Assembly: GCA_944322825.1 (NCBI GenBank) | Contig: CALUQD010000012.1 | Span: forward strand, 1-32,469 | Direction: 5' to 3' | Length of the DNA stretch: 32,469 nt | From: Candidatus Avelusimicrobium pullicaecorum | GTDB taxonomy: Bacteria > Elusimicrobiota > Elusimicrobia > Elusimicrobiales > Elusimicrobiaceae | In this document: piece after piece, positions 15,851-32,125 of the stretch | Position numbering within the stretch: position 1 is the stretch's first letter | How the letters are laid out: each line of letters begins with the position of its first letter | Translations under genes and position numbers: made by a program | Notes under the pieces: generated by a model | What the model was told of the DNA's origin: nothing | Seen by the model: only the letters and a program-made list of their open reading frames with translations | Databases searched by the model: none

Positions 15851-16411
15851 ATGAACCAAAAAGGTTTTACGTTGATAGAACTGGTGATAGTGATTATCAT
15901 TGTGGCTATTTTGGCCGGTTTTGCGGTGATGTACTACGGGCGTTTTATTGAACGAATGCGTATTGCCGAGGTGGATACCTTGGTGGGAACGTGTCTGTCC
16001 GCCCAGGAAAGAACCTTTTTGAAATTCCAACACTATACGCCGTATTGGCACCAGCTGGATGCCGCCCCCCTGCCAGTGCGTACCCCCAAAGACGGTAACG
16101 ATTATGCCAACGGCAAAGATAATACAGTGTTCTATACGCGCGGCGGCGTGTTGACGGGTATTCCTAATCCTGGCTTTGCGGTTTCATTTGAACAAGACGG
16201 AACCGATCGTTGGTTTATGGTGGCGCGCCGCGTGGGCAAAGGCGGATATTCCTATCAGCTGGTGCGTCCGTTTGATTCCACACAGACCGTCTGTGTGCCT
16301 ACCTGGTCCAACGAAAAAGATTTGGCTATTTGTATGGAGTATATGGGAGTGACGGAAACCTCGGAACTGAAGGGAAACCCGATGATTCCAAAACTTCCCG
16401 TCACATTATGA
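15851..16411 (+). CDS. Type IV pilin-like protein, coupled to an LtaS-like gene
   Basis: 186-aa prepilin. The short leader MNQKG is followed by FTLIELVIVIIIVAIL with Glu at +5, then a globular domain. Segments FYTRGG, GFAVSF, ARRVGKGGYSYQL and Cys residues near the end parallel FYTKGS, GFAVTM, ATRMG and YKYTLSRYY in the pilin at 18506, so the two are paralogues. A gggag site precedes the ATG. The stop overlaps the ATG of the LtaS-like gene (ATGA), so the two proteins are translationally coupled. Probably a minor or specialised pilin; an export pseudopilin is the alternative. Confidence 0.87.
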   Translation: MNQKGFTLIELVIVIIIVAILAGFAVMYYGRFIERMRIAEVDTLVGTCLSAQERTFLKFQHYTPYWHQLDAAPLPVRTPKDGNDYANGKDNTVFYTRGGVLTGIPNPGFAVSFEQDGTDRWFMVARRVGKGGYSYQLVRPFDSTQTVCVPTWSNEKDLAICMEYMGVTETSELKGNPMIPKLPVTL

Positions 16412-18505: not shown

Positions 18506-19033
18506 ATGAATAAGAAGGGTTTCACCCTGATCGAATTGCTGGTGGTTGTGTTGATCATCGGTATTTTGGCCGCTATGGCTATGCCGCAGTATTTTAAAGC
18601 GGTGGAACGCTCCCGCATGACGGAAGCTGACCAGCTCTTGAGCTCTATCGCCCAAGCTCAGCAGCGCAAATACTTGCAAATCAACAAGTATACCCAGGAT
18701 TATGGTACCTTGGACGTTGCTCCGAAAGGTGCGTCTGGTGCTACTTTCTACACCAAAGGCAGCACCGGCAACGGCTTTGCTGTGACCATGTCCGGTACGA
18801 CTTATAACGCTGGTAAAGCCACCGCTACCCGTATGGGCCCCGGCAACTTGCAGTACAAATACACCTTGTCCCGCTACTATGCGAGCGATAAGACCACCTG
18901 CGACGGCACCGGCGATGCGAACGGTTCTTCCTTGTGCGCCGACTTCTGCGGTATTGACACGGCTTCTGCCAGCGTAAAATGCTGCAACGACGGTTCCACT
19001 TCTGAATGCGCCGCTCCTTCGGCTACGATGTAA
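18506..19033 (+). CDS. Type IV pilin-like protein, likely highly expressed
   Basis: 175-aa prepilin with leader MNKKG, then FTLIELLVVVLIIGIL with Glu at +5 and a long N-terminal helix (to about residue 55). The C-terminal domain has six Cys residues in the last 55 positions (TTCDG, SLCADFCG, KCCNDG, SECAAP), probably disulfide-bonded. It has the best promoter, best ribosome site and a double terminator of the window, and its codon use (many GCT, ACC, TTG) differs from neighbouring genes, all of which suggest an abundant product. I infer a major pilin, or main substrate of the adjacent transferase. Assembly genes are not in the window. Confidence 0.9.
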   Translation: MNKKGFTLIELLVVVLIIGILAAMAMPQYFKAVERSRMTEADQLLSSIAQAQQRKYLQINKYTQDYGTLDVAPKGASGATFYTKGSTGNGFAVTMSGTTYNAGKATATRMGPGNLQYKYTLSRYYASDKTTCDGTGDANGSSLCADFCGIDTASASVKCCNDGSTSECAAPSATM

Positions 19034-31145: not shown

Positions 31146-31238
31146 TCGTTTTGGTAAACATTCCGAAAGGATCAAAAGACCTGTTTGTTTTATAGGACTT
31201 TTTTGTAAAGCAGGTTATGCCGCGCCATCCGCGCATAT

Positions 31239-31277
31239 AAAAACCCCGCATAAGCGGGGTTTTAAATTCACGCGGAG
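31239..31277. repeat. 39-bp direct repeat, copy 1 (bidirectional terminator plus flank)
   Basis: Contains hairpin ccccgc/gcgggg (loop ataa) with A/T runs on both sides, then ttttaaattcacgcggag. The second copy at 31708-31746 differs at one base. Read on the minus strand, the flank beyond this copy (31270-31290) resembles the last 20 nt of a tRNA-Ser gene followed by its terminator, but the rest of a tRNA is absent. Confidence 0.85.
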
Positions 31278-31387
31278 AGGGAGGGATTCGCCTTCCGATA
31301 AAATCCCTGACGGAAATTTCCTGCAGGCCGGGCTCGCGGTTTTGGCCTTGTCCCCTTCGGGCGCAAACCAAAACATCGCTGCGCCTA

Positions 31388-31656
31388 GGGTGGGCTAGAT
31401 GTTGCCTTGCTCTATTGCGTTTGAGCCGTTTTTGGCAAGAGATGCGCGGCAAAAAACAGGCTACAATGCGGTTGCATTGTAGCCTGTTTTTTAACAAAGT
31501 AGAATGCCAAAAACGGCCAAACCCGAAGGGCCGGCTGATTTTTTGCTTATCGCTCCTTTTTTTATTGCAGATAGTTTGCTATCTGCTGCTAAAAAATGAC
31601 GCGCTAATCTAAAAAATCAGCTCGGCGCAAAGGCAAAAGCAACGTCTAGCCCACCC
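31388..31656. repeat. Nested, branched inverted-repeat element
   Basis: Outer arms 31388-31405 and 31639-31656 match at 17 of 18 positions. Inside are two arms of a branch. Arm A: 31425-31437 with 31505-31517 (13 bp, perfect), enclosing 31451-31469 with 31474-31492 (19 bp, perfect, loop ggtt). Arm B: 31534-31544 with 31611-31621 (11 bp, perfect, extending further with one bulge), enclosing 31567-31574 with 31579-31586 (8 bp, perfect, loop tttg). No credible gene lies within. It could be a structured RNA, a folded single-strand DNA substrate, or a degenerate miniature mobile element. Confidence 0.8.
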
Positions 31657-31666
31657 CAATCCCAAC

Positions 31667-31690
31667 GCAGGGCAAAGCAGTTTGCCCTGC
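31667..31690. repeat. 10-bp perfect hairpin
   Basis: Arms gcagggcaaa and tttgccctgc with loop gcag, between the branched element and repeat copy 2. Not followed by a T-run. Confidence 0.85.
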
Positions 31691-31707
31691 TCCACTCTCC
31701 GCCAACA

Positions 31708-31746
31708 AAAAACCCCGCATAAGCGGGGTTTTAAATCCACGCGGAG
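31708..31746. repeat. 39-bp direct repeat, copy 2
   Basis: Same terminator hairpin and flank as copy 1, 469 bp away, one base different. Here a further stem, cactctccgc (31693-31702) with gcggagtgtg (31741-31750), encloses the hairpin with 9 of 10 pairs. Confidence 0.85.
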
Positions 31747-32125
31747 TGTGTAGTTTGCTCAGCAATATGCTGTTAGTTTTTTGTGCCAAATTCCCTGATA
31801 TGCAGGGAAAATACAGGGAAAATGTTAATTTTTAGGGTTTTTTGAGCCATTTTTTGCCCTGTTTCCCCTATACAACTTGTATAAATTCCCTAAAAACAAA
31901 ACAGGGAATTAATAGAAAATTTAACCAAAAATTCTTAATTCCAACTCTGTTTTCAGGGATTTATAATTGTTGTAATTTAAATGCCTTGAATAAGAGGTAA
32001 AATCTTTCAATTTTGCTTTGGAAGAATTAAAGCCAATGTGGACTAGAAAAATGCCAAGACTCCTTGTGAGGTTTGCTAGTACATTCGCTTGCTGTAGGCA
32101 ATAGTAAAAGGGATTAGATTAATTT
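31747..32125. other. AT-rich gene-free stretch with six CAGGG motifs
   Basis: CAGGG occurs on the plus strand at 31803, 31814, 31902 and 31954, and on the minus strand at 31793-31797 and 31857-31861. The first two plus copies are in cagggaaaat units 11 bp apart, one helical turn. A small palindrome tataca/tgtata lies at about 31869-31883. The 31990-32125 part holds nothing I recognise. Such clusters are seen as iterons or as integrase or repressor sites, but no partner gene is visible. Confidence 0.5.

Follow-up and report, generated by a model that had tools for sequence, protein, structure and literature searches.

A probable mobile palindrome of Elusimicrobiota, nested in a tRNA-anchored repeat

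What is the branched palindrome at positions 31388-31656 of this window (the whole 32,469-nt stretch analysed here): a structured RNA, a folding DNA element, or part of something larger? The window is contig 12 in a genome of 80 contigs whose named relatives are rumen and gut Elusimicrobiaceae MAGs, and the only RNA genes found in it were those for tRNA-Glu and tRNA-Lys, near 22.9 kb. It also carries three separate prepilin-like genes with FTLIEL-type N-termini (758-1291, 15851-16411 and 18506-19033). Our preferred reading, to which we assign a probability of about 0.62, is that 31388-31656 is a non-autonomous, non-coding mobile palindrome of about 267 bp that would move as folded DNA through an enzyme acting in trans, and that here lies nested in a tRNA-anchored repeat.

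The palindrome and its relatives

A first-pass annotation had described five stems of 17/18, 13, 19, 11 and 8 bp in a closed, nested layout around a gene-free interior, and this description held: every arm lies within 31388-31656 where it had been placed, the stem sizes are as given (P1 has a single mismatch in its 18-nt arms), and the layout matches the minimum-energy DNA fold. No convincing gene lies inside the element, and one 121-aa mechanical ORF overlaps one of its ends. Folded as single-stranded DNA, the palindrome reaches -92.2 kcal/mol versus a mean of -42.2 (sd 3.6) for 200 dinucleotide shuffles (z -14.0), none of which attained its energy. Its parts are as follows.

31388..31656, + strand: palindromic element, outer helix P1 with two long arms inside; full match to covariance model R1
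31388..31405: P1 outer arm, 5' side; 17 of 18 nt pair with 31639-31656, with covariation
31639..31656: P1 outer arm, 3' side
31425..31517: left arm; 13-bp stem (31425-31437/31505-31517) around a perfect 19-bp hairpin (31451-31469/31474-31492)
31534..31621: right arm; 11-bp stem (31534-31544/31611-31621) around an 8-bp hairpin (31567-31574/31579-31586)

Contig 24 of the same genome has a second copy (96% identity), and five further genomes of the genus have copies of about 70% identity, from one or two per genome (G019, G049, G026, G004) up to six (G011). The covariance model R1, built from 12 copies, matched along its full 267 positions in two further genera of the same family, g12 and g15, and in family f21, with scores outside the genus mostly of 80-222 bits. 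Five candidates were scored per genome in this phylum search, so its copy counts are minimum values; on closer search, genome G294 had 13 copies, whereas its sister G295 had none. Under R1, the reverse strand of a true copy reaches about 60-86 bits through palindromy alone, and some matches below about 75 bits in families further away (G224, G142, G102, G165) may likewise reflect palindromy only. Four loci of genus g74 (L089, L093, L094, L095) hold shorter long-stem palindromes of about 160 bp with a conserved CTAAAAACCCTAAT near their ends, perhaps a separate family drawn in by R1 through palindromy. In an alignment of 17 sequences, the hub CCC-NNN-GGGC is shared, and the right-arm motif AGCGGCGCA recurs with small changes in all but the most distant rows.

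The covariance search and copy-number check proposed by the first-pass annotation thus returned full-length relatives in several families and a dispersed, multi-copy family that reaches 13 copies in one genome; second copies exist, and so do compensatory changes. The recent origin suggested in that annotation is incorrect for the family, which is phylum-wide and old in Elusimicrobiota, although some of its copies are recent.

Insertion, pairing and movement

The flanks of three G294 copies, when joined, align contiguously through the junction with element-free orthologous sites in G295, G296, G297 and G298, and relative to these empty sites the copies are, by alignment, insertions. Five contigs of G296 terminate inside near-identical palindrome copies, as is usual where an element has multiplied recently. 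Stand-alone copies are preceded by T in 27/30 cases and followed by A in 26/30 (site T^A), and their ends read A-GRG...CYC-T, or in the fuller form A-GRGYG..CRCYC-T. No target-site duplication of constant length was found: copies at L097, L103, L104, L105 and L121 have unequal flanks without duplication, on which ground TA was rejected as a target-site duplication. Internal-deletion forms of about 54, 90 and 180-190 bp occur, along with P1-only and P4-only remnants, and some of the P1-only palindromes are perfect. Dispersed copies, orthologous empty sites and deletion derivatives together support the proposal that this is the core of a miniature element. The genomes analysed are MAG assemblies, which palindromes break; a large autonomous version in G296, hinted at by unpaired end motifs, was rejected, as the contigs concerned break inside near-identical palindromes. 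In genus g76, the matches to the end pattern that were followed proved to be palindromes, remnants and contig-end copies.

Across the aligned copies, 97% of pair cells are paired, and double changes affect 17 pairs and 40 cells (7.8 and 10.6 in shuffles), placing pair covariation far above shuffled and slid controls; the outer arms vary between copies yet remain complementary. A conserved fold with compensatory changes would also suit a structured non-coding RNA, or a REP/ERIC-like stabiliser of mRNA 3' ends, selected at the RNA level and spread by duplication. Conservation of the hub and of the right-arm motif across families adds to this reading, as does gene context, since many copies start at or near a gene 3' end and keep a fixed orientation within each clade, which could reflect an RNA role. 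Yet the orientations are opposite between clades: by ORF-based calls, the upstream gene is co-oriented with the model strand in 19/22 copies of family f21 and opposed to it in 8/8 copies of genus g12. Moreover, both orientations occur inside the tRNA unit, and an Rfam search, the check that the first-pass annotation had named for a known RNA, gave no match at the gathering threshold and nothing credible at relaxed thresholds.

Mismatches within the stems bear on the same question, on the premise that an RNA under selection would accept G.U pairs, though no A.C, on one strand. Among 50 copies, the ratio of G.T to A.C mismatches was 43:34 in the P1 outer helix and 30:30 in the P4 right arm, while the P2 left arm leaned to G.T (29:13), a point against our preferred reading; the copies share ancestry, so neither these nor the covariation counts are independent. 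Acceptor stems of tRNAs, used as a control, had too few mismatches to inform. The similar numbers of G.T and A.C in P1 and P4 favour pairing at the DNA level, and we favour, from these counts, arms that would pair as a DNA hairpin. The earlier suggestion of a DNA-level function accordingly gains from arms that change together with no clear G.T excess in the outer pair, whereas its structured-RNA option is not favoured, with strong compensatory changes but mismatches near 1:1 in P1 and P4 and 29:13 in P2. We regard the RNA reading as unlikely.

A classical MITE, that is, an internally deleted insertion sequence whose transposase recognises terminal inverted repeats, would account for the inverted repeats, the T^A flanks, the multiple copies and the empty sites. 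Such an element seems improbable here: the terminal repeats differ in sequence between copies and genera while each copy remains self-complementary, target-site duplication is inconsistent, and the long conserved interior is unlike a deleted transposase gene. Furthermore, no IS630-type DDE_3 transposase was present in nine carrier genomes checked, and the IS630/Tc1-type mobiliser that the T^A flanks had suggested was rejected on this basis. A Y1/RAYT mobiliser was rejected as well, because these genes are not associated with carriers (12/30 palindrome carriers versus 176/341 genomes overall) and no palindrome stood beside a Y1 gene in the Y1 loci examined. Searches with the palindrome motif in viral contigs and with the palindrome in plasmids and phages gave no match.

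A palindrome with no gene of its own must be served by an enzyme acting in trans. In the mobile-palindrome reading, the element would move as a folded single DNA strand or a cruciform, and the enzyme would recognise its junction and arms; our best guess for this candidate enzyme is a recombinase that acts on the folded single strand and inserts at T^A without duplication. Either selection for the fold or template-switch correction of one arm from the other may maintain pairing at the DNA level. Copies decay by internal deletion to remnants of 54-190 bp.

The tRNA-anchored unit around the palindrome

The 39-bp direct repeats said to border the palindrome are real (31239-31277 and 31708-31746, 97%), but the structure that they border is a larger unit. 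Each comprises the 3' end of a tRNA-Ser-like gene with its terminator; belonging to this tRNA-anchored unit, the repeats were rejected as a target duplication of the palindrome. Read on the minus strand, a tRNA end and terminator (31746-31708) are followed by guide 1, hairpin 1, guide 2 and the palindrome, and then by two conserved hairpins (31379-31290) and a second tRNA 3' end with terminator (31289-31239). The body of the tRNA is missing at this locus, and intact tRNAs precede equivalent units elsewhere.

31708..31746, - strand: upstream 39-bp repeat copy; last 6 nt of the tRNA-Ser-like acceptor and tRNA terminator
31695..31702, - strand: guide 1, GCGGAGAG; antisense to the 3' strand of the tRNA acceptor (copy at 31272-31279)
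31667..31690, - strand: hairpin 1, which splits the antisense; perfect 10-bp stem with a conserved AACTGCTT apex
31658..31663, - strand: guide 2, GGGATT; antisense to the T-arm 3' strand AATCCC
31333..31379, - strand: module B, first hairpin (GCGATG..GTTTG..AAGGC..CCGCGAG)
31290..31332, - strand: module B, second hairpin (CCCGG..GTCA loop..TCGGAAGGC)
31272..31289, - strand: copy of the tRNA-Ser-like 3' end, T-loop to acceptor
31239..31277, - strand: downstream 39-bp repeat copy (acceptor end and terminator)
31208..31234, - strand: one more unit, cut short to its left end (guide and hairpin-1-like); arrays elsewhere show the same distally

To the right of the unit, at 31789-31910, lie AGGGAA/TTCCCT inverted repeats; a similar sequence, CCTGTTT/AGGGAATT, flanks an unrelated copy in G294 (L117).

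Units of this kind were found with a second model, R2, in 125/341 genomes of the phylum, often in tandem, with about eight candidates scored per genome. An alignment of 14 units with the palindrome cut out has 37 pairs, 27 of them with double changes, and contains 92 double-change cells versus only 4 one-sided changes. Among the 30 best unit loci, 29 contain a tRNA within the locus, and about ten kinds of tRNA are represented. The two pieces of the split antisense match the 3' end of the local tRNA with mean best runs of 6.3 and 8.3 nt, versus 3.9 and 5.1 nt for tRNAs of other amino acids; 0/2000 permutations reached the observed mean match, though many loci are orthologous and hence not fully independent. 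In the tRNA-Tyr case, the two pieces add up to 19 nt of uninterrupted antisense, and the fold of the unit is closed and multi-branched (z -6.4). About half of 30 species of the genus have units at the orthologous tRNA-Tyr genes, and several sites scored as lacking one retain a truncated left end. Neither Rfam nor the literature searched yielded a match or a described counterpart for the unit, and searches with module B in viral contigs and with the unit in phages and plasmids gave no match.

Tandem units stand at window 31208-31747 and at L053, L054 and L162-L191. Directly behind a tRNA-Gln gene at L053:4232-4615 (G000 contig 16) are two consecutive 192-bp units, 99% identical and lacking the palindrome, while on the minus strand of L110:5800-6700 and L111:5700-6520, behind tRNA-Val and tRNA-Ser, mixed tandem arrays combine units with and without the palindrome and have differing terminators. 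A palindrome-bearing composite lies beside the gyrA 3' end at L042:3972-4500 (G011 contig 15), with a repeat of about 19 bp (ACTTAMCAAGGCCGTTATT) on both sides, and a second composite with similar flanks lies at L047:3957-4164; both are near prepilin-like genes.

In the window, the palindrome may have come to be nested in the tRNA-anchored repeat by insertion, or it may mark a subtype of the unit. Taken further, the latter idea would make the palindrome an integral domain of a full-length unit rather than an independent insertion, as might be suggested by genera g1 and g15, where it mostly occupies one site, with guide 2 on one side and module B on the other. We find this very doubtful, since most tRNA-anchored units lack the palindrome and those that hold it have it in either orientation; it is weakened further by copies that stand alone in f21, g12 and g15 and by those in other contexts in G011 and G026. 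The unit may be the more novel discovery of the two. Whether it amounts to a categorically new element, namely a tandem, structured, non-coding repeat of about 190 bp that split antisense re-addresses to different tRNA genes, with the palindrome as passenger or partner, is a tentative idea that we hold to be possible rather than probable.

Relation to known elements

These observations add a phylum-wide family of mobile palindromes for which no mobilising enzyme was found among those tested (IS630-type and Y1/RAYT), and an unusually clear case of two hairpin arms evolving in step, apparently at the DNA level. They also bring to light a second family of repeats, located behind tRNA genes and carrying within them an antisense that fits the tRNA of the same locus, and raise the question of how a non-coding element reads and copies the identity of the tRNA that it lands behind. 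The first-pass annotation knew of no named family with this layout, and Rfam 15 and the literature searched do not contradict this; no report on Elusimicrobia repeats or comparable elements was found.

Folded single-strand DNA is the recombination substrate in integron attC sites and at IS200/IS605 ends, and IS200/IS605 elements make no target-site duplication. The palindrome merely resembles these; no Y1 gene in the loci examined is flanked by it. The palindromic, MITE-like bacterial repeats listed as ERIC, YPAL, NEMIS/Correia, RUP and Nezha are, like the palindrome, short, non-coding, strongly palindromic, dispersed, placed beside genes and foldable when single-stranded (PMC3733652). Unlike the ERIC-type repeats, the palindrome is about 267 bp long, has a conserved multi-branch interior and arms that co-change copy by copy, shows no consistent duplication and no IS partner that we could find, and was seen here only in Elusimicrobiota. 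REP and REPIN sequences similarly comprise hairpin DNA at gene 3' ends and are non-autonomous, with size variants (PMC3733652), but REPs are 20-40 bp long and have a GTAG tag and a RAYT (PMC3733652), whereas the palindrome lacks that tag, ends in its own A-GRGYG..CRCYC-T pattern and shows no association with Y1/RAYT genes. With no IS partner, constant duplication or GTAG/RAYT features found, it could be placed in no named family, and it works like the palindromic MITE-type or REP-type elements.
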